Shown here: in pieces, positions 1 to 44,957 of the stretch
How positions within the stretch are numbered: position 1 is the stretch's first letter
How the letters are laid out: each line of letters opens with the position of its first letter
Assembly: GCF_017901155.1 (NCBI RefSeq)
Contig: NZ_CP072800.1
Span: 124,001-188,000, forward strand
Direction of reading: 5' to 3'
DNA: 64,000 nucleotides
Origin: Candidatus Thiothrix anitrata
GTDB taxonomy: Bacteria > Pseudomonadota > Gammaproteobacteria > Thiotrichales > Thiotrichaceae
Notes under the pieces: model-generated
Told to the model about the DNA's origin: nothing
Database searches by the model: none
What the model saw: only the letters and a program-made list of their open reading frames with translations
Position numbers and translations under genes: made by a program

Positions 1-1238
1 CAGCCGTCAGTACGCACGTAAGAAACGTTACGTGGCTGTTTGATCATGTTTGGATCCGGGTCGATACCGATGCCTTCCAAGAAGTTCACCAGACCGATAC
101 GCTCGATCATTTCACCGCAACGCTCGTGTTCCAGACCATTTTCAGCCCAGAAGTCGATGATGGAAGCAGCCAACTCAACAATGCGCTCATAATCTTCTTC
201 GTTATCCAACTTCATGAATGGGATAACCACTGTACCCATCAAGTCACCGATTTTCAGGGTGCGTTTACCGCCGATCAAGATGGTTACACCTTTATCATCA
301 CCCACTTGCAGTGCTTTTGGCATAACGTTCAAGCAGTGCATACAACGTACACAGTTGCCGTTATCAACAGTAATGGTGTCATCGTCGTTCAGCTTAATAG
401 CCTGAGTTGGGCAACGGCTGATGACGTTATCGAACATGTATTGACGACCCGCAGAACGATCACCTTCTTTGCCAATCTCCTTGGCTTTCTTCATGATCAT
501 TTCTTTAACGGCTTCTTGGTTGACTTTCATTTCATCACGCCAAGTACCAATAACCGCAAAGTCAGCACGCTCAATCGCGTTCTGGCAATCGTTAGGACAA
601 CCAGAAACTTTGAACTTGAATTTGTAAGGCAATGCTGGGCGATGCACATCATCCGTGAAGTTATTCATCAGACGGCGATGGATCGCGTGCTCGTTGCAGT
701 TAGACATTTCGCAACGTGCTGCGCCGACGCAAGACATACCAGTACGCACACAAGGACCTGCACCACCCAAGTCCCAACCGTATTCATTGATTTCATCAAA
801 GAAGTGTTGGAAGTTGACGCTGTTTGCACCGATAAACATGATGTTGCCGGTTTGACCGTGGAAAGTCTGCAAACCAGAACCCCACTTCTCCCAGCTATCC
901 GCCAATTGGCGCAGCATGTCAGTGGTGTAGTAGTTACCAGCAGGCGGCTGTACACGCAGCGTATGGAATTCTTTGGATTCAGGGAACATGTGACCGACTT
1001 CAGAAAAGCGCGGAATGATGCCGCCGCCGTAACCGAAGACAGAAATGGTACCACCTTTCCAGTAGCCCATTTTGGTTTCGTAAGAATGCTCCAACTGACC
1101 CATCAGGCCATTGATTACATTACGGATGCGCTCATCTGGATGCTCATCGCGCAGCTTCTTGAAACCGGTGATGAAGCTAGGCCATGGGCCTTCTTCCAGC
1201 ACATCCAGCATCGGTGTTGGATAATTATTCGTTGCCAT
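1..1238 (-). CDS. dsrA: Dissimilatory (reverse-type) sulfite reductase alpha subunit, 3' end cut by window edge
   Basis: This is the alpha subunit of cytoplasmic DsrAB, which in sulfur oxidisers works in reverse to turn sulfur carried by DsrC into sulfite. Translating the minus strand gives an uninterrupted product starting MATNNYPTPMLDVLEEG. It has the siroheme/[4Fe-4S] cysteine signature CVGAARCEMSNC near residue 168 and CPNDC near residue 215, then an inserted ferredoxin-type cluster motif NCVRCMHCLNVMPKA near residue 300. An ATG at 1236-1238 is preceded by a strong GAGGAGG ribosome site, which fixes the start. The gene runs off the left edge, so dsrB and the rest of the cluster should lie outside. 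Oxidative rather than reductive direction is inferred from the organism, not seen. Confidence 0.95.
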   Translation of the reverse strand, partial: MATNNYPTPMLDVLEEGPWPSFITGFKKLRDEHPDERIRNVINGLMGQLEHSYETKMGYWKGGTISVFGYGGGIIPRFSEVGHMFPESKEFHTLRVQPPAGNYYTTDMLRQLADSWEKWGSGLQTFHGQTGNIMFIGANSVNFQHFFDEINEYGWDLGGAGPCVRTGMSCVGAARCEMSNCNEHAIHRRLMNNFTDDVHRPALPYKFKFKVSGCPNDCQNAIERADFAVIGTWRDEMKVNQEAVKEMIMKKAKEIGKEGDRSAGRQYMFDNVISRCPTQAIKLNDDDTITVDNGNCVRCMHCLNVMPKALQVGDDKGVTILIGGKRTLKIGDLMGTVVIPFMKLDNEEDYERIVELAASIIDFWAENGLEHERCGEMIERIGLVNFLEGIGIDPDPNMIKQPRNVSYVRTDG

Positions 1239-1559
1239 ACCTGCCTCCTCAATAAAACGATTGCAATGGCACTTCCTCTTGACTCGCTCTACAAATCAAA
1301 AGCCAAGGGAAATATCAAATCAAAAACGGGTCACGTAACTGTGTTCGCTGCTATTTGCGAGTGGGCTAAGTGTATGCGTCATACTCCCGTCATAGAATCT
1401 CACCCATGGGGTGTTGCTTGAATCCATGCGGTATCCCTAAGGGGATAGGCACTCAACATAATCAAAAATAGTCCACTGACAGCGGTACAATAGCATATTC
1501 GGATTTTTTAATATTGCAAATAGCTGTAGTAATCATCGGTCTTTATTGAGGTCTGCAAA
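1239..1559. promoter_or_regulatory. Divergent dsrA / dioxygenase intergenic region with two small dyads
   Basis: This gene-free stretch separates dsrA (-) from the dioxygenase gene (+), so promoters for both must lie here. I see two short perfect dyads: CACCC-ATG-GGGTG at 1401-1413 and TATCCC-TAAG-GGGATA at 1432-1447. They could be operator sites or chance. The part nearest the dioxygenase (about 1490-1550) is AT-rich. No convincing -35/-10 pair could be picked by eye. Confidence 0.35.
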
Positions 1560-2444
1560 ATGCACAAATCACCCTTCAATATCAATGCCTTATCGGGATT
1601 TCAAGATTGGCGCAACAAAAAGTTATCCGCTTACCCCTTAGCACCGGAAGCATTATTCACCACGATTGCAGACCCTGAAAATCCCAGTAAGACCGAAATA
1701 ACGCAACTCCAGCACATTTGCCGCGAACACAATCTCGCGCTGTACCGTTTTGCACAAGGCGACCTCCGCAGCAAACGTCATGTCCATTGTTTAGGTCGAA
1801 AAGTGGGTTTATCCCGGCTAGATAACAACCTCTGCGCCGATGAAGACAGCCTCACTTCCTTACACGTGACCTCGCACGCTGGGCAACACGATTACATTCC
1901 CTACACCAATAAACCGCTAAGTTGGCATACTGACGGATACTACAACCGGCCAGAAGAGCAAATTCATGGCATGTTGCTGCATTGTGCCCAACCCGCACTC
2001 GAAGGCGGTGAAAGCTGGTTGATGGATCATGAGATTGCTTACATTTTATTGCGTGATGCTAACCCCGATTACATCCACGCCTTGATGCACCCGAATGCCT
2101 TCACGATTCCTGCCAATATATTGAACGGGGAAATCATTCGCCCCGAACAATCCGGCCCCGTGTTTAGCGTCACCGCTGCGGGTCATTTGCACATGCGCTA
2201 TTCCGCCCGCCAGCGCAATGTGATTTGGCGCGATGACCCGATGACGCGGGAAGCCGCCGATTTCCTATTGAATTTATGGCAACAGGACTCACCTTACAAA
2301 ATAAGGTACACATTGCAGGCAGGCGAAGGCTTACTGTGCAACAACGTGCTGCACAACCGCACCGCATTTAAAGACAGCGACGACCCGACACAAACCCGCT
2401 TACTATACCGTGGACGTTATTTTGATCGGGTAGGAAGAACCTAA
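1560..2444 (+). CDS. TauD/TfdA-family Fe(II)/2-oxoglutarate-dependent dioxygenase-like protein
   Basis: This 294-residue protein has the hallmarks of TauD/TfdA hydroxylases: WHTDGYY near residue 122 supplies the first His-x-Asp of the iron triad, and NNVLHNRTAF near residue 262 the distal His, followed by arginines (TRLLYRGRYF) that in the family bind 2-oxoglutarate. Family members use oxygen and 2-oxoglutarate to hydroxylate small substrates, sometimes releasing sulfite from sulfonates. The substrate here is unknown. It opens a same-strand set with a 65-residue protein and a Cas6-like protein, spaced 9 and 5 bp, so one transcript is likely. Its position divergent from dsrA suggests a link to sulfur metabolism (inference). 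Confidence 0.8.
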   Translation: MHKSPFNINALSGFQDWRNKKLSAYPLAPEALFTTIADPENPSKTEITQLQHICREHNLALYRFAQGDLRSKRHVHCLGRKVGLSRLDNNLCADEDSLTSLHVTSHAGQHDYIPYTNKPLSWHTDGYYNRPEEQIHGMLLHCAQPALEGGESWLMDHEIAYILLRDANPDYIHALMHPNAFTIPANILNGEIIRPEQSGPVFSVTAAGHLHMRYSARQRNVIWRDDPMTREAADFLLNLWQQDSPYKIRYTLQAGEGLLCNNVLHNRTAFKDSDDPTQTRLLYRGRYFDRVGRT

Positions 2445-2453
2445 GGAGAGAAT

Positions 2454-2651
2454 ATGCTCAGTTTAAGCCAAATCTTGATGGTGGATGGTCACAACATCAG
2501 CAATTTTGAGGAGTTAAAGCAAATCGTGCAACAACGCGCATTGGAAACCGGCTCGATTTTTTTCCAGATTGATATTGAGCCACCCGGCTACAAAGACCGT
2601 CCAGACGACTGGTACGACCAGTTGGAAATCACTTTTTCGTCGGCGAGGTAA
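2454..2651 (+). CDS. Small protein of unknown function between TauD-like and Cas6-like genes
   Basis: This 65-residue soluble protein matches no family I recognise. It starts at an ATG preceded by AAGGAGAG, has no signal peptide or membrane segment, and is followed after 5 bp by the Cas6-like gene. The N-terminal half looks helical (NFEELKQIVQQRALETG); the C-terminal half is acidic and aromatic (DRPDDWYDQLEITF). Tight spacing on both sides makes it a genuine member of the three-gene operon rather than a chance frame. Confidence 0.65.
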   Translation: MLSLSQILMVDGHNISNFEELKQIVQQRALETGSIFFQIDIEPPGYKDRPDDWYDQLEITFSSAR

Positions 2652-2656
2652 ACACC

Positions 2657-3346
2657 ATGTTTTGGCAGGAAGACGAGGACAAAACCCTCCCCTATCAAGC
2701 ACCCGATGAAGTGCTGGATGTTAGTTTCGCCATCGACTGCAAGCAATTGCCACTGGATCATGCGTGGGATTTGGCACAAGCCGTCCAACGCGCACTGCCT
2801 TGGTTTGCAGAGGAAAGCGTTGCGGGCGTTCACCCCATTCACGTTGCTGAAAGTGGCAATGGCTGGGAACGACCCGATGACGCAGCGAATCAATTCCTGC
2901 TACCTTCGCGGCGCACACGGATGTTTTTACGCATTCCCAAAACCCGTATTCCTGAGACCAAAGCCCTATCCGGTACAACGCTGGATGTTAACGGTTATGC
3001 CATCGGTTTGCGGGACATGAAGGAAAAACCGTTCATCCACACTTCGGTAGTATTTTCGCGCTACGTGCTCTCTGACGCAGCAGAAGACGAAAACAGCTTT
3101 CTGCAACGCATGGCGGCAGAAGTAACACAGATCGCTGATTTCAAAGTAAAAAAAATGCTGTGCGGCAAGGGCCATACCCTGCACACACCGACAGGTGTAT
3201 TGCATACCCGTCATTTAATGATCGCGGACTTGGACAGTGAACCGTCAATCCGCTTACAGCAATACGGGCTGGGTGAAGGGCGCAAACTCGGTTGCGGGCT
3301 GTTTATGCCTCACAAAGGCATCAAAACCCTAAAGCCCACCGAATAA
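2657..3346 (+). CDS. Orphan Cas6/Cmx6-type (I-MYXAN) RAMP-fold protein
   Basis: This 229-residue protein resembles the Cas6/Cmx6 family named for the Myxococcus-type I CRISPR system. The best evidence is the C-terminal glycine-rich stretch GLGEGRKLGCGLFMPHKGI (about residues 203-221), the G-loop position of Cas6-type RAMP proteins. Conserved-looking SGNGW and the His-rich GKGHTLHTPTG (about residues 170-180) also fit. Cas6 proteins cut precursor CRISPR RNA, but no cas gene or repeat array is visible, and the gene is the third of an operon beside dsr. A role outside CRISPR, perhaps binding or cutting another RNA, is an inference. Assignment is from memory of the family, not a search. Confidence 0.65.
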   Translation: MFWQEDEDKTLPYQAPDEVLDVSFAIDCKQLPLDHAWDLAQAVQRALPWFAEESVAGVHPIHVAESGNGWERPDDAANQFLLPSRRTRMFLRIPKTRIPETKALSGTTLDVNGYAIGLRDMKEKPFIHTSVVFSRYVLSDAAEDENSFLQRMAAEVTQIADFKVKKMLCGKGHTLHTPTGVLHTRHLMIADLDSEPSIRLQQYGLGEGRKLGCGLFMPHKGIKTLKPTE

Positions 3347-3362: not shown

Positions 3363-3436
3363 CCCCGCAAGGGGTGCGGGAACAAAAAAGCGTATCCCTT
3401 TTGAGGAATGGGAGGTTTACTGCTTTTTCGTATAAT
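3363..3436 (+). promoter_or_regulatory. Hairpin and promoter-like -10 ahead of the DsrC-family gene
   Basis: A GC-rich hairpin (CCCGCA...TGCGGG, about 3365-3380) follows the Cas6-like gene and may end or attenuate its transcript, though it has no T-run. Downstream, TATAAT at 3431-3436 is a perfect -10 hexamer about 58 bp before the DsrC-family start; no good -35 is seen at 17 bp. The DsrC-family gene probably has its own promoter here. Confidence 0.4.
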
Positions 3437-3493: not shown

Positions 3494-3838
3494 ATGGCTT
3501 ACGAAGTAAATGGCACAACCATCGAAACCACTGAAGCAGGCTACTTGGTAGACCTGAACGATTGGAACGAAGAAGTTGCTAAAGTTATTGCTGCCGAAGA
3601 AGGCATTGGCGAGTTGACTGAGCGTCACTGGGATGTCATCAACTACCTGCGCGACCAGTACATCAACAACGGCGGCACACAGCCAATGGAACGCATTATC
3701 CAGAAAGCAATGGCTGAGCAATGGGGCGACAAAAAGCTGTCCAGTAAAGACATGTACACCCTGTTCCCACGCGCACCGAGCAAGCAAGGTCTGAAAGTCG
3801 CAGGTCTGCCAGCGACTAACCGCAAAGGCGGCTATTGA
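3494..3838 (+). CDS. Cysteine-free DsrC/TusE-family protein (RspA-like)
   Basis: This 114-residue protein aligns by eye with DsrC/TusE: MAYEVNGTTIETTEAGYL at the start, then the LTERHWDVINYLRDQY and NGGTQPMERIIQKAM helices, ending LFPRAPSKQGLKVAGLPATN. True DsrC carries two conserved cysteines on the C-terminal arm and TusE one; here there is no cysteine anywhere, so it cannot carry sulfur as a persulfide or trisulfide. Such members are called RspA and are thought to be regulatory or scaffolding. The frame is open upstream to 3374, but ATG 3494 has a GAGGAA site and matches the family N-terminus. A redox-active DsrC should exist elsewhere. Confidence 0.88.
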   Translation: MAYEVNGTTIETTEAGYLVDLNDWNEEVAKVIAAEEGIGELTERHWDVINYLRDQYINNGGTQPMERIIQKAMAEQWGDKKLSSKDMYTLFPRAPSKQGLKVAGLPATNRKGGY

Positions 3839-3848
3839 TTTCTACCCG

Positions 3849-3899
3849 AAAGGGGGTATTCCCCCTTTTACCTGAATCCGTTTATCCTGCTTTCAGGAT
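3849..3899 (+). terminator. Two hairpins between the RspA-like gene and the next small gene
   Basis: AAAGGGGG-TATT-CCCCCTTT (3849-3868) is a perfect stem followed by only four Ts, so it looks like a terminator or attenuator after the RspA-like gene. A second dyad, ATCCTG-CTTT-CAGGAT (3884-3899), sits just before the next ribosome site. Partial read-through could set the ratio of the two proteins. Confidence 0.6.
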
Positions 3900-3926: not shown

Positions 3927-4118
3927 ATGAGCACTAAGCAAGAGCTGATTAGCGAAATGCTGGAAATGCAGAAGAAATTCATTGCATACGAACAATCTGG
4001 TCAATTCAATGCAGAAGAATACTACGTGGGTGAGTGGAAAGCTTACCGTGAACGTTATCAGGAACTGACTAACGAAGTTCGTGAAATTGCTTCTAAAGAA
4101 GCTAATTTCTGGAAATAA
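3927..4118 (+). CDS. Small charged helical protein downstream of the DsrC-family gene
   Basis: This 63-residue protein (MSTKQELISEMLEMQKKF...) is almost all predicted helix and rich in Glu/Lys/Tyr, with no signal peptide and no cysteine. I do not recognise a named family. ATG 3927 is chosen over a GTG at 3900 because GAAGAGG stands about 7 bases ahead. It lies 88 bp after the RspA-like gene, separated by two hairpins, and ends in a strong terminator, so the two genes probably form one small unit. Confidence 0.7.
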   Translation: MSTKQELISEMLEMQKKFIAYEQSGQFNAEEYYVGEWKAYRERYQELTNEVREIASKEANFWK

Positions 4119-5180: not shown

Positions 5181-5849
5181 TTATACCTCACTCCACATCC
5201 GCAATAAGTTGATGTGTACCGTGCTGATATTAGCCGCTTCTTCCGATTGTGGCAGCTTGTTGATTACACCCTCGCGAGCCTGTGCTAACTGGTAAAGCAA
5301 TTCGCGTTGCATGGGGTCTTTCACCAAGCTTTGCGCCCATGTCACCGCGACTAAACGTTCACCACGTGTCACTTCAGCAACCTGATGCCAACTGCCAGAA
5401 TCATAGATCACTGCGTCACCGGCTGCACCGCGAATTTTTTGTTCGCCATAAGCAGTGCGAATCACAATTTCCCCACCTTCGTAGTCATCATTGAGAAATA
5501 CAGTGGTGGAAACGTCGGTACGATACCGCCCGGACATCGGCCCCATTACCGGATCATCCACGTGAAAACCGTAAGTCATACCGGGTTGATAACGTGCGTA
5601 AAACGCTGTCGCCACCCGTAATGGCAATACCGCAGCCTGATATTGCGGGTGTTGCACCAACGGTGACATTACCATCGCATTTAAGCGACGATGTAACGGG
5701 CTATTCGGGGAAAGCTCTTGATTATACTTAACTTTCGCCGCTTCCATCCCGGCAGAAAAACGCCCGTCGACAAATTCACCCGTGGCTAACAGCTCCTGAA
5801 CTTCTTTCAGGCGTTGGGAATCAAGTACATTTTTAATCAGTAATAGCAT
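5181..5849 (-). CDS. piuC: PKHD-type Fe(II)/2-oxoglutarate hydroxylase (PiuC/YbiX family)
   Basis: This 222-residue protein matches the PiuC/YbiX family: GMTYGFHVDDPVM near residue 95 supplies His-x-Asp, GSWHQVAEVTRGERLVAVTW near residue 155 the distal His and the 2-oxoglutarate-binding Arg, and the N-terminus (LLLIKNVLDSQRLKEVQELL) is typical. Length is close to the usual 225 residues. In other bacteria these genes sit beside siderophore receptors and are iron-regulated. Here there is no receptor next to it, and no Fur box was found by eye. The physiological substrate of the family is not established. Confidence 0.87.
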   Translation of the reverse strand: MLLLIKNVLDSQRLKEVQELLATGEFVDGRFSAGMEAAKVKYNQELSPNSPLHRRLNAMVMSPLVQHPQYQAAVLPLRVATAFYARYQPGMTYGFHVDDPVMGPMSGRYRTDVSTTVFLNDDYEGGEIVIRTAYGEQKIRGAAGDAVIYDSGSWHQVAEVTRGERLVAVTWAQSLVKDPMQRELLYQLAQAREGVINKLPQSEEAANISTVHINLLRMWSEV

Positions 5850-31745: not shown

Positions 31746-34700
31746 TTACTTAGCCTTTGCGCCCCAGCGTTGGTAGCCAAAGGCCACCCACACCATCAGC
31801 AAACTCAGGAATAGCAAGCTCCACTCACCCAACGTCGGGATTTGCGCCGCAGAACCCAGCGAGATGTCGGTAGTATCGTTCGGATCATCCGTACCGCCAT
31901 TGTCGGTAGTAATGTCGTCGTACTCCGGTTTACCGTCGCCGTCCAAATCCCAGCTTGAATGCGCTTGGTTGGAAATGGTCTGCTGTTCACCTGCTTTGTC
32001 GAGCATACTGTAGAAGCGGATGACCACTTCGTTCGCTGCCGCAGCCTCGGTGACATTGCCCGCATCCGCGCCAATCGTACCAATCCAAATCACCCGACCA
32101 CGTGGGTAATCAGCACTTGGAGCTTCGTACTTGCACGTTTCAGTCACGGATGTGCCACGCGCTTCACAGTAAACACCGTCCGCACTGACAAACTCACCCG
32201 CAGACATTGCCGCGTAGTGCGTACCTTCCGGTACACCATCGTAGACCTTGACCTTAGCTACACTGTCGCTGCTGCTATTGATCCACACCATTTGCCACAA
32301 CATCACGTAATCGCCGGTAGCGGTAACGGTTTTGTAAGCACTCGGCGGATCAAAGATGAAGTGCAGTTTCGCCGTGCTTTCATCGTTTGCATTCAGCTCC
32401 GCATCAAACACCGTACCGTCTTCCAACACCGGTTTCGCGGTAGCTGTCGCGGTATTCACCAAGCTGGTGGTAATGCGGTGTTCGTAGTAGTAACGAATCC
32501 GCGCATTCGCATCCTTACTCAGCGGTACTAACGAAGTCGGCACCGTACCCAGCGGCTTAAGCTGTGCAGCAGTCAGGTTCAGCGTGTTATCGACCAGTGC
32601 GATTTGTGCCAAACCAGTTTCACCCGGATTGGTAATCTCGAAGCAGTAAGTCACGTTTTCCTGCTTGTCCTTGTCGATGTCAACGATGCTCAACTCGCTG
32701 GTTGCCGCATCCGTACCACATTTCGCACCTGCGTCGTGGCCTTGGTAAGCGGTTTTCAGCAACTTGATCTCGCTTTTCAGTGCGCTATCAAGGAAGTCCA
32801 GCCCGGTACAACCCACATTACCATCCGGCAAGGTGCAGGTGTTTTTACCATCTGCCACCGATACCAGCACCGGAATGCGGTTATCGTTGCCTTCTGAGCG
32901 GTCAGCCGTGGAAATGTGCGCCGGTTTATCCTTCTCGACGATGACGTAATGACCGGTAATGACTTCATCAAAGGCATAACGCCCGTCTGCATCTGTTACC
33001 ACCGTTGCAATCCGCACACCATCAGACGGGTCGCCATTACCATCAGGATCGGTGAACAATTCCAGCGTGACACCAGCAATACCGCCACTAGCTTGAGTCA
33101 AATCACCCTTACGCTCAGGATCAGGACGCACATACCCTGTCAGGCTACCTTTCGGCTCTGCATCAAGGAACATCAACCCTTGTGGTGCTTCACTTGCCAC
33201 CACGGTAAACGGAATCCGGTTGTCATTCTTGTCCGCGCTGTCAGCGGTAGACTCATAATTTGCCGGATCAGTTTCCACCAGCAGGTAACGACCGGGCGGC
33301 ACTTTCGCAAAGGTAAACGTACCGCTGGCATCCGTCAGCACAGTTTCCAGCAAACGACCATCCGCCGGATCACCATCACCATTCGGGTCGGTGTACAAGG
33401 CCACACTCACACCCACCAGACCACGTTCAGTGACACCCGCTTGGGTATCGTGGTTGTGGTCGTCAATGACCTTACCGGCTGGAGCCACCCAAGTGGACGG
33501 ATCGTAAGCCAAGAAGCTTGCATCTTTCGCATCCGAACCACTTTTCACTACGACCGTCAGGTGTTCGTGGTCAATTACCACGCTACCGTCAGTGGTTGCC
33601 GGGGTGCTGCCTGTTGCCACAAAACCGGGCTTATGGGTAACGCTCACGGTGTAAGTACCCGGTGGAACCAGCAATTGATAACTGCCATCTTCACCCGTAG
33701 TCGTGGTCATCGTTACCGGATTACCGAAGCTATCCGTGCCTGTCACGGTAATCGTTACCCCACCAAGGCCGCCATCTTCCGGCTCAATCGTGCCATTTGC
33801 CCACAGGTCATTCAGCACTTTACCGCTGATTACCGCTGGGGTAATGCCCACATCCACCGCGTCATTCAGCGAACCAGACAGGTAAGCTTGCAGCGGACTT
33901 GTACCGGAAGCATCCACATCAGAGTCGAGAGCGCGGTCTTCACCCTGTTTTGCCGGAGTAAAGCTGCTGTCCAGCGACACCACTTGAATGCTGTATTTAC
34001 CTTCCGGCACGGCAAACTGGTATTTGCCTTGGGCATCAGTGGTCGTCGTTGCCACAAAACCGCCGTCTTCATTCAGCAGAGTAACGCTGACGTTAGCCAG
34101 TGGTGTTTCACCTGCATCCTGAATGCCGTTGCGATTGCTATCCAGCCACACGTAATCGCCGATCTTGGCAGGCAAAATACCCGCGTCGATAGTTTGATCA
34201 CCCTGCGTACCGGAACCCACCGTTACCGTTGCTATCCCCGTTGCCGGATCAGCGTTGGAATCGGTTGCGCGGTCTTCACCTTGCTGGGCAGTAGTCAGTT
34301 TCAATGCACCGACCACGAATTGCACGCTGTAAGTCGCTGGAGCCACGTCACGGAAAGCGTAGAAACCGCTGGCATCCGTTACCTGAGTATCCATCGTTTT
34401 ACCTTTGGCATTAATCAGCTTCACGGTAATGCCAGCAACACCCGGCTCGCCCTCGTCCTGCATTCCATTTTCATTGAGGTCAGTCCATACCCGATCACCC
34501 AATGCCCCGGCAACAACACCGGCATCCAGATTAGTAATGGTATTGGTCGAAGTCACCGTAAACGCATCAGTCAACCCGGTTTCAGGGTCAGCGTCAGAAT
34601 CTACTGCTAAATCTTCACCCACACCTTTTTCCACCAGCTTCAGAGTTTCCGGCATCACGAACGCGACACGGTATTCACCCGGCAATACGCCAGTGAAGTG

Positions 34701-35666
34701 GTAAATGCCATCCGCGCCTGTCGTGGTTGTGTCTACGATAGTGCCGTTTTTATCCAGCAAGTTAACCGTAATCCCCACCGCGCCCGGCTCATCGTACAGG
34801 CCATCATCCGTACCGTTGCTGGCACTGTGGTCAAGCCACACGCGCCCGGTCACACTGGCAGGCAATACCCCTGCGTCTACTGTGTCGTTAAAGCCATCCG
34901 AGGTTACTAATGCAGTCATGCGACCGTTAGCATTGGTATCGCTATCCTTCGCATCGTCTGCACCAGCATCGGTTTGGGTAAACACAAAGCCCGTCATATC
35001 TTCCAGTTGCACCTGATATTTACCTGGTAACAAGCCTGTAAACTGGTACAAACCGTTCACGTCGCTCACTACGCGGTAAGGCATTGGTGGTTCTTGATCA
35101 ACTGCCGGACGCATCACCGGATTACCCGCGTTATCCAGCAATACCAGCGTCACATCACGTACTGAAGGTTCATTTTCATCCTGGACACCATTGGCGTTAA
35201 CGTCCAGCCACACGCGATTGCCGAAGCCACCCGCACGGTAGAAGCCTGCATCCACACTGCTGATGTCAGCCGATACCAAGGTCACTGGCACACTCAGGTT
35301 AGGACGAATATCGCTATCCACGCCATCGTCATTGCCTTGGTCTTGTGCCACCAGTGTGTAGGTTGCTGGCGGATTCACCACCACAACGTAAGCTCCCGGC
35401 AACAAACCAGCCACTTCGTATTCACCATTAGGGTTGGTCGTCGTTGTCGCTACCGCCACACCATCCGCCGGATCGCCATCACCGTTAGGGTCAGTGAACA
35501 CCGTCACACCCACGCCCGGCAAAATCGGCTCAAACGGATCAGCCTGACCATTACCATCGGTGTCTTCCCATGCAAAACCCATCAAGGTTGCCGGTGCGAC
35601 ACCCGCATCCAGATCACGGTTTTGCTCACCCGACAACAGGGTAATAGTCGCTTTACGGCTGATCAT
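31746..35666 (-). CDS. Readable C-terminal segment of the giant surface protein
   Basis: This 1,306-residue frame is unbroken. It contains about ten repeats, then a DUF11-like domain (KLLKTAYQGHDAGAKCGTDAATSELSIVDIDKD...ENVTYCFEITNPGETGLAQI), a second beta region and the IPTL-CTERM tail with one membrane helix and a basic end (QRWGAKAK). The tail makes this a substrate for exosortase-like processing, as known for PEP-CTERM relatives. Confidence 0.87.
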   Translation of the reverse strand: MISRKATITLLSGEQNRDLDAGVAPATLMGFAWEDTDGNGQADPFEPILPGVGVTVFTDPNGDGDPADGVAVATTTTNPNGEYEVAGLLPGAYVVVVNPPATYTLVAQDQGNDDGVDSDIRPNLSVPVTLVSADISSVDAGFYRAGGFGNRVWLDVNANGVQDENEPSVRDVTLVLLDNAGNPVMRPAVDQEPPMPYRVVSDVNGLYQFTGLLPGKYQVQLEDMTGFVFTQTDAGADDAKDSDTNANGRMTALVTSDGFNDTVDAGVLPASVTGRVWLDHSASNGTDDGLYDEPGAVGITVNLLDKNGTIVDTTTTGADGIYHFTGVLPGEYRVAFVMPETLKLVEKGVGEDLAVDSDADPETGLTDAFTVTSTNTITNLDAGVVAGALGDRVWTDLNENGMQDEGEPGVAGITVKLINAKGKTMDTQVTDASGFYAFRDVAPATYSVQFVVGALKLTTAQQGEDRATDSNADPATGIATVTVGSGTQGDQTIDAGILPAKIGDYVWLDSNRNGIQDAGETPLANVSVTLLNEDGGFVATTTTDAQGKYQFAVPEGKYSIQVVSLDSSFTPAKQGEDRALDSDVDASGTSPLQAYLSGSLNDAVDVGITPAVISGKVLNDLWANGTIEPEDGGLGGVTITVTGTDSFGNPVTMTTTTGEDGSYQLLVPPGTYTVSVTHKPGFVATGSTPATTDGSVVIDHEHLTVVVKSGSDAKDASFLAYDPSTWVAPAGKVIDDHNHDTQAGVTERGLVGVSVALYTDPNGDGDPADGRLLETVLTDASGTFTFAKVPPGRYLLVETDPANYESTADSADKNDNRIPFTVVASEAPQGLMFLDAEPKGSLTGYVRPDPERKGDLTQASGGIAGVTLELFTDPDGNGDPSDGVRIATVVTDADGRYAFDEVITGHYVIVEKDKPAHISTADRSEGNDNRIPVLVSVADGKNTCTLPDGNVGCTGLDFLDSALKSEIKLLKTAYQGHDAGAKCGTDAATSELSIVDIDKDKQENVTYCFEITNPGETGLAQIALVDNTLNLTAAQLKPLGTVPTSLVPLSKDANARIRYYYEHRITTSLVNTATATAKPVLEDGTVFDAELNANDESTAKLHFIFDPPSAYKTVTATGDYVMLWQMVWINSSSDSVAKVKVYDGVPEGTHYAAMSAGEFVSADGVYCEARGTSVTETCKYEAPSADYPRGRVIWIGTIGADAGNVTEAAAANEVVIRFYSMLDKAGEQQTISNQAHSSWDLDGDGKPEYDDITTDNGGTDDPNDTTDISLGSAAQIPTLGEWSLLFLSLLMVWVAFGYQRWGAKAK

Positions 35667-38509
35667 ATCCGGTCGGAATCCAACTCGCGTGCCGCACCTT
35701 GCGCTGCCGGAACCAACTGCATTCCTTCAGGTAACGTGAACTCCACGGTGTAAACACCCGGCTTCAACCCAGCAAAGTTGTATTTGCCGTTAGCATCAGT
35801 TGTAGTGGTTGCATTCACCGCCAGACCTGCGCCATCCGCACCGGACAACACCACTGTAATGCCGCTGATACCCACTTCGTTCGGGTCTTGCAGTGCATTT
35901 TCATTGGCATCCAACCACACGGTATCGCCAATGCTACCCAAACCGCTATCGAGGAAATCCTGCGCCAGTTTGTCTTCGCCAGAGGCTACGGTTACGTTGA
36001 TTTGGTTGTCGTTCGCACCTTCCACATCAGCGGTGGAAATCCAGCCGTCGAGATCGGTTGCACGCACGCTGTAAACACCCGGTTTCAAGCCTGTAAAGGT
36101 GTAGAACCCGTTTTCATCCGTCGTTGTCGGCGTACCAATTTGGGTGTCGCCTTGCCACAAGGTTACGCTGACATTGGCCACCCCACTTTCCAGATCTGCG
36201 AATGCAGCATCAGCGTCGATGTCATTACGCACTTGCCCACTGATACTGGCTGGCTGGTAATTCAGGAAGTCGTTTTGCGCGGAAGTTTGACCACTGGTCA
36301 CCACTACGCTCACCACATCCATGCTTACCACAGTACTGCCTTGGGTTCCGGCTTCGCTACCGGTGGAAACCGCACCGTCAGGGGTGGTTTCAGTGATGCT
36401 GTAAGTACCCGGTGGCACGATAAAGCTGTACGTACCATCCGCAGCGGTAGTGGTGGTTTTAATCACAGGATTACCAAGTAAATCCGTACCGGTCAGCGTA
36501 ATCACCACACCAGCAACCACTGGTTCGTTAGCGTCTTGCACCCCATTGGCGTTCAGATCATCCAACACCGCGCCCGAAATCAGCGCAGGTTTTACGCCTG
36601 CATCCACACTTTGGTTGCCGACGGTGGAAACCACAGTCACTGCCACATTCCCAGCCGCATCAACATCGGAATCCAGATCGTCGTCAGTACCACGGTCGGT
36701 TGCGGTAAATTGCGCACCTTCCGGCAATACCACTTGCACGTGGTATTCACCCGGCAATACCCCGGTAAAGTTGTAGAAACCGTTAGCATCTGTGGTTTGT
36801 GTCAGCACCGTTTTACCGCTGCTATCCAGCAGGTTAACCGTCACATTTGCCAAACCGAGTTCGCCAGCGTCCTGCATTCCGTTGAGGTTTTCATCAACCC
36901 ACACACGATCACCCAAGCCGCCAGGTTCAATACCCGCGTCAAGGTTGGTCACGCTATCGGTCGATTTCAGCACAAAGTTAGGGCTGTGACCGTCGGCGAT
37001 TTGCACATCGGAATCCACTGCATCGTCACCACCCGTATCAGGAGTAACAAACTTCATATTGGCAGGTTGGGTGATTTCCACACGGTATTCACCCGGCAAG
37101 ATACCGCTAAAGCTGTATTGGCCTTCCGAACCTGTGGTCGTCGTCGCCACCGTTGCGCCGGTTTTCACATCCACCAGTTTCACGCTGACACCAACCACAC
37201 CGGATTCTGTGTCATCCTGCGCATTCGCATTGCGGTCAATCCATACCCGACCGCTAATCGCGGCTGGCAAAATGCCCGCATCCGTATCACGCAAGTGCTG
37301 CCCGGAAACCAATGTTACCAAGGCACTGCCATTCGCTGCCGGATCGGAATCCGCCGCACGGTTATCGCCTTGTGCCGTTTTGGTCAGGACAATGCCTTCC
37401 GGTGTCACGAACTTGACGCTGTAATCGCCCGGAATCTTGTTATTGAACAGGTACTGCCCTTCCGCATTGGTGGTGGTAGTCGCCACCACTTCACTTGCTT
37501 TATTGAGCAATTGCACTTCCAGACCCACAATCGCTGGTTCCTTCGCGTTTTGAATGCCGTCTTCGTTAACATCCAACCACACGTAATCGCCGATACTGCC
37601 CAATTGGTAGTAACCCGCATCCACCGCCGTTGAAGAACCTGATTTCAAGCTCACCGCAGCCACACCGCTAGCATTGGCATTGGAATCCAACGCCGTATCA
37701 TCACCTTGTTGGGCAAGGCTGCGCTGATAGCCATCCGGCAGACTAAAGGTCACGAGGTAATCCAGTGGCAACAATTGCTCAAAGCGGTATTCACCATTGG
37801 TTGCAGTAAAGCTGGCTTTGACCTGCTCAGTTGCTTGCGCCACACCGTCTGCATTCACGTCGCGGTAAAGCGTAACCATCACACCTGCCAGACCCGGCTC
37901 TTCCTCATCCTGCACCCCGTTAGCATTGAGGTCGTGCCAGACTTTATCGCCCACCGACACTAAACCAATGTAACCAAAGTCCAGACCGCTAGTGGTTTGC
38001 ATCGGCAACACTTCCGCTGGTGTCTGATGATCAAACAAACCATCAGGATCACCGGTTTGCTGTGTACCTGCTGCCAAGCTCGTTGGGTCAACCTTCACGG
38101 TATAATCACCCGGCGGTAAATCCGCTGCGGTGTACACACCATCCGCGCCCGTTGTCAGCGTAGCAACCGTTTCACCCGCAGCATTCACCACCGTAACCGT
38201 AATGTTTGCCAGCAATGCTTCGTCAGGGTCACGTATCCCGTCGGTATCGCTGTCTGTCCACACTACGCCGGTCAATGTGCCTTTTTGCAATGCATCAAGG
38301 AAATCATTACCTGTGCTGTTTTGTGCCGAAGCCAATACCACCAACACCTTATTGTCATTAGGCGCGGTCACATCGAAAGTGGATTGCCACTTCAGCCAAG
38401 TCCGCTTCCACCACCACATAATTTTGTGGCTTGAGGTTAGTGAACAGGTAACGACCTTCGCTGTCGGTAGCGGTTTTCGCCACTTGCACGCCATCACTGC
38501 TGTCACCAT
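35663..38509 (-). CDS. Readable segment of repeats in the giant surface protein
   Basis: From about 38390 this 948-residue frame carries some nine repeats (WTDSDTDGIRDPDEALL, WHDLNANGVQDEEEPGL, WLDVNEDGIQNAKEPAI, WIDRNANAQDDTESGV, WVDENLNGMQDAGELGL, WLDANENALQDPNEVGI). The first 40 residues are out of register. The break at 35669-35672 is again CCGG for CCCGG. Confidence 0.8.
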   Translation of the reverse strand: MVTAVMACKWRKPLPTAKVVTCSLTSSHKIMWWWKRTWLKWQSTFDVTAPNDNKVLVVLASAQNSTGNDFLDALQKGTLTGVVWTDSDTDGIRDPDEALLANITVTVVNAAGETVATLTTGADGVYTAADLPPGDYTVKVDPTSLAAGTQQTGDPDGLFDHQTPAEVLPMQTTSGLDFGYIGLVSVGDKVWHDLNANGVQDEEEPGLAGVMVTLYRDVNADGVAQATEQVKASFTATNGEYRFEQLLPLDYLVTFSLPDGYQRSLAQQGDDTALDSNANASGVAAVSLKSGSSTAVDAGYYQLGSIGDYVWLDVNEDGIQNAKEPAIVGLEVQLLNKASEVVATTTTNAEGQYLFNNKIPGDYSVKFVTPEGIVLTKTAQGDNRAADSDPAANGSALVTLVSGQHLRDTDAGILPAAISGRVWIDRNANAQDDTESGVVGVSVKLVDVKTGATVATTTTGSEGQYSFSGILPGEYRVEITQPANMKFVTPDTGGDDAVDSDVQIADGHSPNFVLKSTDSVTNLDAGIEPGGLGDRVWVDENLNGMQDAGELGLANVTVNLLDSSGKTVLTQTTDANGFYNFTGVLPGEYHVQVVLPEGAQFTATDRGTDDDLDSDVDAAGNVAVTVVSTVGNQSVDAGVKPALISGAVLDDLNANGVQDANEPVVAGVVITLTGTDLLGNPVIKTTTTAADGTYSFIVPPGTYSITETTPDGAVSTGSEAGTQGSTVVSMDVVSVVVTSGQTSAQNDFLNYQPASISGQVRNDIDADAAFADLESGVANVSVTLWQGDTQIGTPTTTDENGFYTFTGLKPGVYSVRATDLDGWISTADVEGANDNQINVTVASGEDKLAQDFLDSGLGSIGDTVWLDANENALQDPNEVGISGITVVLSGADGAGLAVNATTTTDANGKYNFAGLKPGVYTVEFTLPEGMQLVPAAQGAARELDSDRI

Positions 38510-41500
38510 TGCCGTCTGGGTCAGTAAACAGGGTAATCGTTACCCCACCAATACCATTATCGGTATCGGCTGGGTTGCCATTGTAGTTAAGGTCATTACG
38601 CACCTGCCCCGCAATGCTGCCCACGCGGTAATCGAAGAAGTTGTTGTTTTCCGATTTGCCGCCGCTGCTCACTGGCGTAGTCAAGGTATCCGCATTCACC
38701 ACGGCTGCCCGGTTGCTGTCCCGGCTGGCTACCACTGGAGAGGTAATCCACCAGATTAGTCGTTACCAGTGTGTAATTCCCCGCCGGAACTGTGAAGCTG
38801 TATTCACCGTTATCATTGGTAGTGGTAGTCGCGGTCACTGGCGTACCGAATACATCCGTGCCGGTCAACGTCACTGTCACGTTCTTCAGTGCAGTTTCAG
38901 CCGCATCCAAGTTGCCATCAGCATTAGTGTCTTCAATCACGTAACCAGACACGACGGCTGGCGGTAAACCAGCATCCAAGTCCTGATGATTGTCACCGGA
39001 AACCACTGTTACCACTGCGGTAATACCTGTGGTCAAATCCGCATCCGAATCGGCGGCTGGGTTCGCACCCTGCTTGAGCTTGGTAAACGCTGCCAAATCC
39101 GGCAATACAAACTCGACACGGTATTCACCGGCAATACCGTGAACTGGTATTTACCGGTAGCGTCCGTCAACGCGGTCAATGGATTACCACCTGCGTCTTT
39201 CACCGGCTTGCTTTCTTTATCCAGCAAGTTAACCGTGACACCCGCCACCGCAGGCTCACCCGCACCTTGCGTACCGTCACCGTTCAAATCCAGCCACACG
39301 TAATCACCGAGTTTCGCAGGCACAATCCCCGCATCCACGGTTTGATTACCTACACCGGAAATCACCGTCACTTTCACTTCGCCATCCGCTGCCGGATCGG
39401 AATCCAGCGTGGTGTCTGAGCCTTGTTTCGCGGTTACAAAAGTCATGCCGGTAGGTGGCACAAATTTCACGCTGTAATCGCCGGTTGTACCGCTGCAAAG
39501 TTATAGAAACCAGTCGCATCGGTAGTTTGAGTAGCGACGGTTGCACCCTTACCATCCAACAAATTCACCACCACGTTGGCAACGCCAGTTCACCGCTGTC
39601 TTGCAAGTTATTGCCGTTGAGATCCAGCCACACGCGGTCGCCCAACGCACCGGCTGCAATCCCCGCGTCTACGTCACTGACAGTCGCGCCGGATGCAACG
39701 TTAAAGGTATGGCTCTTACCATCTTCCACGCCAACATCGCTGTCTTTGACATCATCGCCGCCTTTGTCTTGTTCCACAAAGCCCATGTTCGCTGGCTCTT
39801 GCACCTGCACTTGGTAGCTACCGGCAATACGCCTGTAAAGGTGTAAACGCCATCCGCACCTGTGGTAGTGGTTGCCACAACCGCTTGGGTGGCGGTGTTA
39901 ATCAAGCTCACACTGACACCAATTACACCTGTTTCTGGAGCATCTTCCACACCGTTGGCGGTATTGCTGTCAGTCCAAACACGCCGGTTACGGTAGCCGG
40001 TTGTACACCTGCATCAATGCTTTGGTTGCTTTCACCAGACTTGAGCGTAACGCTGGCTTTGCCATCGGCTGCCGCGTCACTGTCAATCAAATCTGTACCT
40101 TGGTCTTGGGTGGTAAACGCCATTCCCGTCGGTAACGTGAACACAACGTCATAAGCACCCGGATACAGGTTGCTGAACTGGTATTTGCCGTTCGCATCGG
40201 TTTGCGCTGCTTGTGGTGGCACATCATTGCCATTGCCCAACTTGCCACCCAACGTAACGGTCACACCCGACACACCGGTTTCAGACGCTTGCTGAATGCC
40301 ATCGCCGTTACTGTCAAACCACACTACATCGCCGATGCTGGCATATTTATACAGACCTGCATCTACATCGAGCAGATTCGCGCCGCCCGCCAAAGTAATT
40401 ACCGCAGTACGTCCATTGACCGCACCTGCTACCGCTTGAATATCAACCGCATCGGAATCAGCAGCTTCATCCGGGCAACATCTGCCGCTACAAAGCCTGC
40501 ATAAGTTTCCGGCTTCTTAAATTCAACACGGTAATCACCGGCAACAATTGTTCAAAACGGTACAGCCCCGCGCTAGTCGTGGTGGTGGTTTTGAGAATAT
40601 TCATGCCGCTGGTATCCAGCAAATGCACGGTCACGCCTGCCACACCGGTTCACCCGCGTCTTGCAAGCCGTTAGCGTTGAGGTCATCCCACGCCTTATCA
40701 CCCAAGGCCGCAGCACCCACGTAACCAAAATCCAACCCGCCGGTTTCCGCGCCTGCGGTTACTGTCGTAGCAGTCTGATGATCTTTGAGTGCGTCAGGAT
40801 CAGCGGTTTGCAATACACCTGCTGGCAACGTGGTGGCATCCACTTTCACGCTGTATTTACCGGTGGCAAACCTTCGGCTTTGTACGCACCGTCTGGCGTG
40901 GTTTGCAGGGTAGCCACGATCTTACCGTCAGCATCCAGCACCAATACCTTGATATTGGCTAAACCGGTTTCAATCGGCTCACGCATCCCGTCCGGTTTTG
41001 TATCTGTCCACACCACACCGCTCAAGCTGCCTTTTTGTTGCGCATCGAGGAAATCATTACCCGTGCTGGTTTGTGCCGAAGCCAAGGCCAACGGAATGCG
41101 GTTATCGTTACCACCTTGAATATCGGCGGTGGAAGCCCACTGCTCAAGGTCGGTTTCCACGACTACATAATTGCCGGTTTCACTGCGTTAAACACGTAGC
41201 TGCCCGCGCTATTGGTAGTTGCTGTGCCTACATTGACACCATCCGCCGGATCGCCGTTGCCATCAGGGTCGGTAAACAGGGTAATGGTGACACCAGCGAT
41301 ACCCGCATCGGCATCAGCAAAGCTGCCGTCATAATCGCTGTCATTACGCACCTGACCCGCAATGCTGCCCACGCGGTAATCGAGGAAGTCATTGTGTTCG
41401 GAAGTTGCGCCACCCACTGCTGGTGTGGTCAATTCATCTTCGTTAACAATCGCCGCACCCGTTGCCGAACCTGCCAAACTACCGCTGGAGAGGTAATCCA

Positions 41501-42737
41501 CAGGCGTGGTTTCCTTGAGGGTGTAAGTTCCGGCAATACCGCAAAGCTGTATACGCCGTTAGCATCGGTTGTCGCCGTCGCAGTTACTGGCTGGCCTAAC
41601 GCATCCACACCCGTCAGGGTAATGGTTACGCCTGCAATACCGGTTTCGCCGCTGTCTTTCACGCCGTTGGCATTGAGATCTTTCAGCACCATACCGCTAA
41701 TGCGTGCCGGGCTAAACCTGCATCCAAGGTTTGATCGCTTGCACCCGAAGCCAAGGTAACACTGGCAGTGCTGCCGGTGGTGGTATCCGCGTTGGAATCT
41801 TGTTCGGCTGTACCTTGCGCCGCCTGCGTAAACGCCGCACCGGTTGGCAAGGTAAACTTCACGCTGTATTCACCCGGCAATACCACAAACTGGTATTTAC
41901 CCGCTGCATCGGTCAGCGTTGTTACTGCATTACCCGCAACATCCAATACGGGCGCACCGGCTTTATCCAGCAATGCTACGGTAATGCCAGCAACAGGCGG
42001 TTCGCCCGCGTCTTGCTTGCCGTCACCATTGGTATCCAGCCACACGTAATCGCCCAGTTTCGCTGGCACAACACCTGCGTCCACGGTTTGATTACCCACG
42101 CCGGAAACCACTGTTACCGCGACTTTGCCATCGCCGGAAGGATCGGAATCCAAAGTGTCATCCGTGCCTTGGTTTGCACCCACCAGCGTCATACCTGCCA
42201 GGGTTTCAAACTGCACGGTGTGATTGCCGGTAAAACGGCAGCGAAGTTGTAGAAGCCGGAAGCATCAGTGGTTTTGGTGTCAACAACCTTATTCGTGCCG
42301 TCGAGCAATTTCACGGTAACGTTAGGCACGCCGGTTCGCCACTATCTTGCAGGTTATTGCCGTTGAGATCCAACCACACACGGTCGCCCAAAGAACCGGA
42401 TTTAATCCCCGCGTCAACATCCACAATCGCATCGCCGGAAGCAACCGGGAAGCTGTGACTTGTGCCGTTCGCAGGGTCTACGTCGCTGTCTTTGGTGTCG
42501 TTACCGCCTTCGTCTTTGAGGACGAATTCCATATTGGCAGGTTGCAGCACTTGCACGCTGTAATTACCCGGCACTACGCCAGTGAAGGTGTAAACGCCAT
42601 CCGCACCACTGGTGGTGGTAGCAATGACTTTACCGCTGGTAGCATCAAGTAAGTTAACCGTTACCCCAACTACGCCGTTTTCCGCACCGTCATCGTCAAT
42701 GCTGTTGGGGGTATTGTTATCACTCCACACCCGACCG

Positions 42738-44957
42738 CTAATACTGGCTGGGCGTACCCCCGGCATCCAGTGTCAAATTGGTTTCACCCGATTTCAGGGT
42801 CGCGGAAACTGTACCCGCTGCGGCTACGTCGCTATCCAAGCTATCGTCCGCACCTTGATCTTGCAGGGTAAAGCCCATGCCTGCTGGCAGGTTGAATTTC
42901 ACGCTGTAAGTACCCGGATACAGATTGCTAAAGCGATAATTACCCGCCGCATCCGTGGTGACATCGGTAGCGGTAATTGCCGTGCCATCGCCGCGTGTGC
43001 CGGTCAACGTAACCGTCGTCGCAGCCATGCCCGCTTCGTTTACGTCTTGCTTGCCGTCACCATCTGCATCGAACCACAAGGTATCGCCAAGGTTAGCGGC
43101 TTTATACAAACCTGCATCCACATCACGTGGTGCTGCACCGCCCGCCAAGGTAAATACCGCCGTGCGCCCAGTCAGCAAATCCGCATCGGAATCTTTCGCA
43201 GTATCCCCACCCTGTTTAGCAGTCACAAAACCGCTGAAGGTTTCTGGTTTCGCAAACTCAATCTGGTAATCGCCCGGTGCAAGGTGCGTAAACAGGTATT
43301 CGCCGTTCACGTCAGTGGTAGTAGTTTTAACCACCGTGTCACCCGCGCTGTTCAACAAGCGCACCGTTACACCGGCAACACCGTTTTCATTCGCGTCCTG
43401 TTCACCGTTACCGTTGAGGTCTTCCCACACCCGATCACCAACGCTGGCACTGCCCACGTAACCAAAATCCAAACCACTGGTTTCCGCACCGGCATTCACT
43501 GCCGCTGAAGTCTGGTGATCTTTGAGTGCGTCAGGGTCAGCCGTTTGCAATACACCGGCTGGCAACGTCGCCGTGGTGACTTTCACGCTATAGGTTCCCG
43601 GCGGTAAGTTATCCGCACGGTACGAACCATTCGCCAGTGTGGTCAACGTGGCTACGGTATTACCCGCTGAATCCAGCACCAACACTGTGACATTGGCTAA
43701 CGCTGTTTCGCCCGCATCGCGTGCGCCATTGCTGTTCGCATCTGTCCACAGCACGCCGCTTAAGCTGCCTTTACGTTTGGCATCAAGGTAATCGTTACCA
43801 ATACTGTCTTGACCGGAAGCCAACGCCAGTGCAATGCGGTTATCGTTTGCCGCTTGAATGTCTGCCGTTGACTCCCACTTATCCAAATCCGTTTCAACAA
43901 TGACGTAACTGCCCGGTTTCACTGCACTAAACAGGTACAAACCGGTAGCGTTAGTCGTCGCCGTCGCCACACTTACCCCATCAGCCGGATTGCCGTCGTT
44001 ATTCGGATCGGTAAACAGGGTAATCGTGACACCGGCAATGCCTTCATCCGTATCTGTCAGGCTTGCGTCGTAATCCGCATCGTGGCGCACTTGCCCCGCA
44101 ATGCTGCCAATGTGGTAATCCAAGAAATCGTTGTTAGCAGAAACACCACCACCCAGTACTGGCGTGGTTAATTCATCCACCGACACCACTGCTGCACCTA
44201 TCGCAGTTCCGGCAACGCTGCCGCTGGACAGGTAATCAACCGGATTGGTTTCTTTGAGGGTGTAAGTTCCCGGCAATACTGCAAAGTTGTACGCACCGTT
44301 CGCATCAGTAGTCGCGGTTGCATTGACGCTATGACCCAGCGCATCAACCCCGCTCAGGGTAACGGTTACGCCTGCAATGCCGACTTCACCCGCATCTTTT
44401 ACGCCATTAGCGTTCGCGTCTTTAATCACCGCACCGCTAATCCGTGCCGTTGCTAAACCAGCGTCCAGCGTTGGATTGTCCGCCCCAGAGGCTACCGTCA
44501 CGACAGCGGTTACACCCGTCGTAATATCCGCATCGGAATCCTTATCCGCCGCACCTTGGTTCTTTTGGGTGAAGGCTGCATTGGCTGGCAACACAAATTT
44601 CACGCTGTACTCACCCGGCAATACACTGAATTGGTATTTGCCCGCCGCATCCGTGGTAGCGGTCATGGCATTGCCACCCGCATCCAATACTGGCGCACCG
44701 AGTTTGTCCAACAGTTTCACCGTCATGCCTACAACAGGCGGTTCACCTGCGTCTTGCTTACCGTCGCCGTTGCTATCCAACCATACGTAATCGCCCAGTT
44801 TCGCAGGCACAATGCCCGCATCCACGGTTTGATTACCCACGCCAGAAACTACGGTTACAGCAACTTTGCCATCACCAGCCGGGTCGGAATCGAGGGTATC
44901 GTCCTTGCCTTGATTTGCGCCCACCAAGGTCATGCCTGCGGGTGGCACAAATTGCAC
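42738..44957 (-). CDS. Readable segment 3 of the giant surface protein
   Basis: This 739-residue frame covers further repeats (WLDSNGDGKQDAGEPPV, IKDANANGVKDAGEVGI, WTDANSNGARDAGETAL, WEDLNGNGEQDANENGV, WFDADGDGKQDVNEAGM). It ends at an apparent one-base gain (five Cs at 42757-42761 instead of four). Confidence 0.8.
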   Translation of the reverse strand: MQFVPPAGMTLVGANQGKDDTLDSDPAGDGKVAVTVVSGVGNQTVDAGIVPAKLGDYVWLDSNGDGKQDAGEPPVVGMTVKLLDKLGAPVLDAGGNAMTATTDAAGKYQFSVLPGEYSVKFVLPANAAFTQKNQGAADKDSDADITTGVTAVVTVASGADNPTLDAGLATARISGAVIKDANANGVKDAGEVGIAGVTVTLSGVDALGHSVNATATTDANGAYNFAVLPGTYTLKETNPVDYLSSGSVAGTAIGAAVVSVDELTTPVLGGGVSANNDFLDYHIGSIAGQVRHDADYDASLTDTDEGIAGVTITLFTDPNNDGNPADGVSVATATTNATGLYLFSAVKPGSYVIVETDLDKWESTADIQAANDNRIALALASGQDSIGNDYLDAKRKGSLSGVLWTDANSNGARDAGETALANVTVLVLDSAGNTVATLTTLANGSYRADNLPPGTYSVKVTTATLPAGVLQTADPDALKDHQTSAAVNAGAETSGLDFGYVGSASVGDRVWEDLNGNGEQDANENGVAGVTVRLLNSAGDTVVKTTTTDVNGEYLFTHLAPGDYQIEFAKPETFSGFVTAKQGGDTAKDSDADLLTGRTAVFTLAGGAAPRDVDAGLYKAANLGDTLWFDADGDGKQDVNEAGMAATTVTLTGTRGDGTAITATDVTTDAAGNYRFSNLYPGTYSVKFNLPAGMGFTLQDQGADDSLDSDVAAAGTVSATLKSGETNLTLDAGGTPSQY

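Follow-up and report, generated by a model that had tools for sequence, protein, structure and literature searches.

The window, meaning the whole 64,000-nt stretch of Candidatus Thiothrix anitrata DNA that was analysed, carries at its left end dsrA, which runs leftward from position 1238, and a rightward series of genes in the order tauD, a 65-aa gene, a Cas6-family gene (cas6), a DsrC-like gene and a 63-aa gene. Purple sulfur bacteria, filamentous sulfur bacteria and animal symbionts oxidise sulfur by means of the reverse-Dsr pathway. The features of the region are listed below. The neighbour counts refer to 101 distinct cas6 loci; loci entered a count when their flank was long enough or a match was present, which favours matches.

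3..1238, minus strand: dsrA, divergent, running past the window edge; near cas6 and divergent in 38/50 counted loci
1278..1307, minus strand: 7-bp hairpin with a covarying stem, located in the leader of dsrA 39 nt upstream of its start; candidate RNA target
1432..1447, no strand assigned: palindrome TATCCC-TAAG-GGGATA resembling an operator, between the divergent dsrA and tauD genes, conserved across regions
1560..2444, plus strand: TauD/TfdA-family dioxygenase (tauD), 294 aa (PF02668, 2e-19); near cas6 in 57/73 counted loci
2454..2651, plus strand: s65, conserved small protein of 65 aa, the closest neighbour of cas6; near it in 83/99 counted distinct loci
2657..3346, plus strand: cas6, Cas6-family RAMP protein of the dsr-type clade, an ORF of 229 aa
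3394..3436, plus strand: probable promoter of the DsrC-like gene, the conserved element ATCCCTTTTGAG and then TATAAT (3431-3436)
3494..3838, plus strand: DsrC/TusE-family protein ending in RKGGY (PF04358, 4.8e-36; TIGR03342); downstream of cas6 in 67/99 counted loci
3927..4118, plus strand: conserved protein of 63 aa ("p72"; an upstream start gives 72 aa); near cas6 in 56/81 counted loci

Neighbours of the cas6 gene

A Cas6/Cmx6-like RAMP gene at exactly 2657-3346 on the plus strand, located beside dsrA, had been proposed in a first-pass annotation of this DNA, and both the gene and its position next to the divergent dsrA (3-1238) proved correct. The gene had also been described as tightly packed behind the dioxygenase gene. 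This has to be amended, because s65 (2454-2651), which is conserved across families, lies between the end of tauD at 2444 and the start of cas6 at 2657. The s65 protein matched no Pfam or NCBIfam family over the cut-off, and a fold search against the PDB returned nothing at E <= 0.001. Its profile was positive in 54 of 187 genomes, 53 of which carry cas6, the remaining one being G159; cas6 occurs with no s65 match in at least G019, G073 and G078. The 63-aa protein likewise had no family over the cut-off in Pfam or NCBIfam, and both small proteins can be aligned across bacterial families. Neighbours are absent from some cas6 loci, and L136, L137 and L140 retain cas6 without the cluster.

The C-terminal arm of the DsrC-like protein contains no cysteines, and the protein thus lacks the two C-terminal cysteines of canonical DsrC. 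Among the 67 DsrC-like neighbours of cas6, 55 are without any cysteine and five have a cysteine in the last 20 residues. We take this cysteine-less DsrC/TusE-like neighbour to resemble the class called RspA.

Further genes were observed in the region or in its relatives. An extra gene of about 235 aa appears in 13 locus entries of relatives, some of them overlapping (L147:6188-6901; L142, L132, L117, L126). It mostly sits between s65 and cas6, has no match in this window, and its product matched no Pfam family over the cut-off. A PKHD-type 2OG hydroxylase is encoded at 5181-5849 of the window and lies near the cluster in several families. The PADLOC "2OG, CAS-associated" model matched one of 54 window ORFs at 5.5e-16, probably this hydroxylase, and we guess that the "CAS-associated" label may itself derive from dsr-linked cas6 loci. 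Very large ORFs extend across 31749-50619. SdrD_B-like domains in nine window ORFs and carboxypeptidase-regulatory-like domains in eight probably belong to large surface proteins, and their placement at 31749-50619 is a guess from ORF length.

Family, fold and residues of the Cas6-like protein

The 229-aa protein matched PF09559 (Pfam Cas6) with 185.1 bits against a gathering cut-off of 26.7. It also passed, narrowly, the equivalog cut-off of TIGR02807 (NCBIfam, type I-MYXAN Cas6/Cmx6), with 102.6 bits against 98.85, a margin of 3.75. The PADLOC Cas6 model matched as well, and the profile matches were far above chance. Comparison of an AF2 model with the PDB showed a RAMP fold as in solved Cas6 structures, in line with the first-pass annotation, and PDB 8fcj_B (type I-B CAST Cas6) is among the closest known relatives. 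In an unrooted tree, 50 dsr-type proteins formed one side of a branch, with nine CRISPR-clade proteins on the other (support 100/93); its dsr-type rows were L155-L157 and 47 more hand-picked from 101 orphans, and an earlier tree omitted L155-L157.

Residues were compared between 101 distinct orphan (dsr-type) Cas6 proteins and nine CRISPR-clade rows, with matches shorter than 150 aa excluded. The orphan proteins retain N68 (97), W70 (98), R86 (101), K166 (96), G170 (101), H219 (95) and K220 (99). N68, W70, K166, H219 and K220 occur in none of the nine CRISPR-clade rows, R86 in two and G170 in one. His59 is present in 95/101 orphan proteins and, together with W70, marks the dsr-type clade. Common to both groups are R92, Q201, the glycine loop, GCGxF and His35. 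The Cas6-type glycine-rich motif that had been noticed at the C-terminus is real and intact, with G204, G206, G212 and G214 each kept in 100-101 of the 101 orphan proteins.

From the fold, the glycine-rich loop and the basic invariants, we infer that dsr-type Cas6 binds RNA. Alternatively, the protein may have lost its RNA role and serve the DsrC-like protein and s65, whose genes cluster with its own, as a structural or protein-protein partner; the invariant basic and aromatic residues and the intact glycine-rich loop speak against such a loss, which we consider unlikely.

The histidines bear on whether binding would be accompanied by cutting. His35 is kept in 99/101 orphan proteins and in 8/9 CRISPR-clade rows, the ninth being gapped, and its position corresponds to the start of helix 1 in the AF2 model (alignment and DSSP). 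The catalytic His of Cas6e and Cas6f sits in helix 1, according to PMC3652601. RNA cutting through His35 is plausible on the alignment and the model, and less sure than binding. A second His, at column 51, is found in 6/9 CRISPR-clade rows (one gapped) and in 4/101 orphan proteins, and therefore catalysis may be lost. A catalytically dead regulator, which would bind RNA without cutting it, is possible, with odds clearly below even. The rarity of the column-51 His and the clade-marking His59 and W70 agree with it, as does the statement in PMC3652601 that some Cas6 proteins function without the canonical His and are perhaps RNA chaperones as much as enzymes; the retention of His35 at the helix position of the Cas6e and Cas6f catalytic residue argues against it.

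Co-occurrence with dsrA and relation to CRISPR

The cas6 gene was found in 59/95 related genomes, including 16/16 of the genus with one match each, and a PF09559 family search recovered the same 59/95 (tables compared by eye). The survey was extended to 377 gammaproteobacterial genomes, each with a completeness of at least 95%. In this set, cas6 was present in 122 genomes, representing 89/271 genera, and dsrA in 121, with the limit set at E < 1e-50; of these 121, 118 exceed the curated cut-off and three are fragments. Both genes occurred together in 117 genomes, corresponding to 117/122 cas6 carriers and 117/121 dsrA carriers (Fisher p 1.4e-85, a statistic that ignores shared ancestry). The five genomes with cas6 only comprise G286, a weak match (E 1.4e-4), G383, with 32% identity and Cas1 on the same contig, and G118, G163 and G313, where the cluster lies at a contig end. 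In the four genomes with dsrA only (G159, G232, G350, G427), the contig breaks off 0.15-1.9 kb away from dsrA, on its divergent side; in G159, tauD and an s65-like protein are encoded directly before this break. A sample of 269 genomes drawn across the phylum contained four PF09559 carriers including the genome of the window, and in the other three cas6 lies close to dsrA, tauD and a DsrC-like gene. These data strongly support cas6 as a regular part of the reverse-Dsr gene set in Gammaproteobacteria (in the GTDB sense). The earlier label "orphan" understates the place of the gene in a conserved cluster.

One genome of the family has a second Cas6-like copy, 43% identical (G020:C1:3185-3844). 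The G020 draft shows 4% contamination, and therefore this copy may be foreign.

The gene is under purifying selection, with dN/dS values of 0.041-0.074 against five congeners; these values are rough because most pairs show saturation at synonymous sites (dS 0.94-2.5). Pairwise cas6 distances track dsrA distances (r 0.78, 630 pairs, 36 loci); this correlation ignores shared ancestry, and in the test two loci were each entered twice (L155/L158, L157/L160). The physical linkage to dsrA in 38/50 counted loci would agree with a neutral gene that travels with the dsr cluster. Such hitch-hiking is nevertheless scarcely credible and was rejected, given the low dN/dS and the persistence of cas6 apart from the usual neighbours in single-contig genomes of 1.03-1.45 Mb (L136, L137, L140).

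The first-pass annotation had reported neither a CRISPR array nor another cas gene. Within the scope of the scans, this holds for the window. An exact 22-mer scan of the window found no array. PADLOC was run on 54 of 55 picked window ORFs with a length of 110 aa or more, the one omitted being antisense to dsrA; dsrA itself and shorter ORFs lay outside the scan. It gave no further Cas protein at E <= 1e-5 except the "2OG CAS-associated" match. The remaining PADLOC matches in the window were PDC-S70, PDC-S03, an HNH of ZorE type and the CAS-associated 2OG family. The gene therefore adjoins neither the I-MYXAN cas genes nor the array that would mark a type I-MYXAN locus. The statement does not hold for the genome, which has arrays and five Cas1 matches at four loci elsewhere, among them type I-C and type III loci. 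The type III locus L102 has its own Cas6. This locus also carries an RT-Cas1 fusion of 997 aa (G000 3085011-3085826).

A rival reading is that the gene encodes an ordinary Cas6, which would mature crRNA in trans for these distant arrays and adjoin dsr by chance. This reading draws on the arrays and the type I-C and type III loci of the genome, on two of its loci (L103, L104) with no Cas6 among the proteins scanned (part of each locus), and on the TIGR02807 cut-off passed by 3.75 bits. The first-pass annotation had itself proposed that type I CRISPR genes lacking a cas6 elsewhere in the genome would count against a role in sulfur metabolism, and this was found in part, as a type I-C locus with Cas5c and no cas6 found. 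The finding is outweighed because type I-C lacks cas6 in any case and Cas5d does the processing (PMC3652601), and because the survey of other genomes argues against a role in trans.

In that survey, Cas1 was present in 151/377 gammaproteobacterial genomes. Strong cas6 carriers were defined as the 122 carriers minus G286 and G383, which were left out because of the weak match in the former and the 32% identity with Cas1 on the same contig in the latter. Of these 120 strong carriers, 57 have Cas1 and 63 do not, so a CRISPR-Cas system in the genome, a further mark of type I-MYXAN, is not general among them by this measure, and the genome of the window is one that has Cas1. Cas1 is slightly commoner in carriers than in non-carriers (odds 1.57, p 0.055), a difference that is not significant and ignores shared ancestry. 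Cas3-HD and Cas10 were searched in 52 of the 63 Cas1-less carriers. No Cas3-HD match was obtained in 48/52, and the other four were weak (20-26 bits), three of them over the cut-off of 23.1. The Cas10 palm model PF22335 matched in 33/52, 16 over the cut-off, and it was regarded as not discriminating because so many genomes matched and E. coli matches too, presumably through GGDEF-like domains. The best Cas10-palm match, in G279, had 58.5 bits and the next 38.0, so G279 may have a genuine Cas10. In 19/52, no match to the Cas1, Cas3-HD or Cas10 palm models was found, and six of these are single-contig genomes (G078, G101, G127, G149, G381, G434). G149, G381 and G434 measure 1.45, 1.16 and 1.03 Mb and carry cas6 without the usual neighbours (L140, L137 and L136, respectively). 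Maturation of crRNA in trans is thus very improbable, and it was rejected on the link to dsrA and the absence of Cas1 from 63/120 strong carriers and of Cas3-HD matches from 48 of the 52 searched, the type III locus L102 having its own Cas6. A survey of this kind had been suggested in the first-pass annotation, and genomes with dsr do keep the gene without Cas1.

Upstream elements and probable role

The palindrome TATCCC-N4-GGGATA was found with at most two mismatches in 36/44 dsrA/tauD regions, 23/31 of those outside the genus (shuffles mean 1.94, max 5). Between the DsrC-like and 63-aa genes, it was found in 14/45 regions (shuffles 1.14, max 4), and between cas6 and the DsrC-like gene in just 4/64 (shuffles 0.66, max 3). 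It was taken as a DNA operator since the half-site letters are kept while several mismatches are uncompensated (by eye), and its distribution speaks for a common control of dsrA and the cas6 cluster. The exact ATCCCTTTTGAG element was present in 39/151 loci, one per locus, several of which overlap in the same genome. Inverted repeats, often followed by GATATRG, were observed upstream of the 63-aa gene (3846-3870 of the window and relatives), often about 20 nt before a TATAGT-like box (by eye). These repeats probably form an activator-dependent promoter related to the dsrA/tauD palindrome.

We also searched for an RNA on which the protein might act. Rfam at gathering scores gave no match in the window. 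RNAalifold, run in windows along three intergenic regions within the genus, showed low z at two DNA palindromes and the p72 leader, and the dsrA leader (z -7.1) was the single low-z place that is no palindrome. Across 11 distinct genus sequences, 97.3% of the cells of the dsrA-leader hairpin are paired and 4/7 pairs have changed on both sides. The two-sided changes amount to 4 pairs, reached by 6/500 shuffles, and 8 cells, reached by 1/500; the stem was chosen from, and the alignment trimmed to, the same 11 sequences, which favours the hairpin. Slid versions reached at most 2 pairs and 3 cells changed on both sides. A covariance model matched in searched members of the genus alone, with the next E at 0.29 or worse. 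In 31 leaders from outside the genus, the 55-nt window at this place was slightly richer in structure than shuffles, with a mean z of -1.13, and no other of the eight windows had a lower value. A stem located 22-48 nt upstream of dsrA had p <= 0.1 in 9/30 leaders versus 2/30 on the tauD side. Stems at that place thus appear only modestly commoner than in shuffles. The hairpin is a candidate lead for the target of the Cas6-like protein.

The motif GCCATTCC was observed 8-48 nt before dsrA (e.g., L030, L145, L146, L091). With at most one mismatch, it occurred in 7/13 leaders of the genus and 5/31 others (shuffle means 0.16 and 0.4). Another hairpin, GAATG-GCAA-CATTC, precedes the DsrC-like gene; it was dropped, being absent in some congeners (by eye).

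Our main reading, with a probability of roughly 0.7, is that the gene encodes a CRISPR-independent Cas6 (PF09559) member of the reverse-Dsr set, most likely RNA-binding, that adjusts sulfur oxidation. It would be a dsr-specific RNA-binding protein, perhaps still an endoribonuclease, that acts on a specific cellular RNA together with s65 and the cysteine-poor DsrC-like protein. It would either adjust dsr gene expression, the closest candidate target being the dsrA-leader hairpin, or take part in a sulfur-linked RNA step at a point where RNA and the flow of sulfur meet. Control of expression through the leader is preferred because the leader covaries. Members of the DsrC/TusE family function in tRNA thiolation as well as in the Dsr pathway, and the DsrC-like partners suggest a link of the Cas6-like protein to sulfur carriers. 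The DsrC of Allochromatium vinosum was reported to bind DNA upstream of dsr (PMC5944118). Either of the two outcomes would agree with these properties of DsrC. A fuller version, in which the recruited protein cuts a specific RNA such as the dsrA-leader hairpin with the two new small proteins and the cysteine-less DsrC/TusE-like protein, is tentative, somewhat short of even odds.

The first-pass annotation had suggested a CRISPR RNA-processing fold in sulfur metabolism without CRISPR. The RAMP fold, the association with dsrA and the lack of a significant Cas1 link strongly support this part; the proposed processing or sensing of an RNA is suggested by the fold and the retained residues. The near one-to-one occurrence with dsrA and the retention in Cas1-less genomes of about 1 Mb point to a missing, likely RNA-based component, and they suggest that an RNA-handling protein from a family that cuts CRISPR guide RNA was recruited to energy metabolism. 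The CRISPR name of dsr-type cas6 is then misleading. If the fuller version is true, chemolithotrophic energy metabolism would include RNA-based control or a sulfur-linked RNA step, of which the clade's genes, at present annotated as "CRISPR Cas6/Cmx6", would be a part.

No Cas6-dsr link was found in the literature searched by title and abstract start, a search that reached few subscription papers. Papers that mention both treat the two apart in the parts available, and the dsr descriptions in the available parts of PMC4287430 and PMC5944118 do not mention a Cas6-like protein. In the former, dsrC homologues outside the operon of the Solemya velum symbiont are also without the two C-terminal cysteines. 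The neighbour at 3494-3838 is DsrC-like (PF04358), as is this cysteine-less DsrC/TusE class; here it is linked to a Cas6-family gene, a link not found in the literature searched. Plasmid Cmx6 proteins (TIGR02807) are 22-26% identical to the 229-aa protein, and the three whose flanks were read adjoin cas3, cas5 and other cas genes, whereas the window gene adjoins dsr genes. Compared with type I-MYXAN Cmx6 and 8fcj_B, the window protein lies across a supported branch and has residues of its own clade. Solo-Cas4 (PMC12538437) is likewise a Cas-family protein outside CRISPR loci; dsr-type cas6 differs in having a constant set of metabolic partners in many families. Its fold family is known, and the setting and probable role of dsr-type Cas6 are new.
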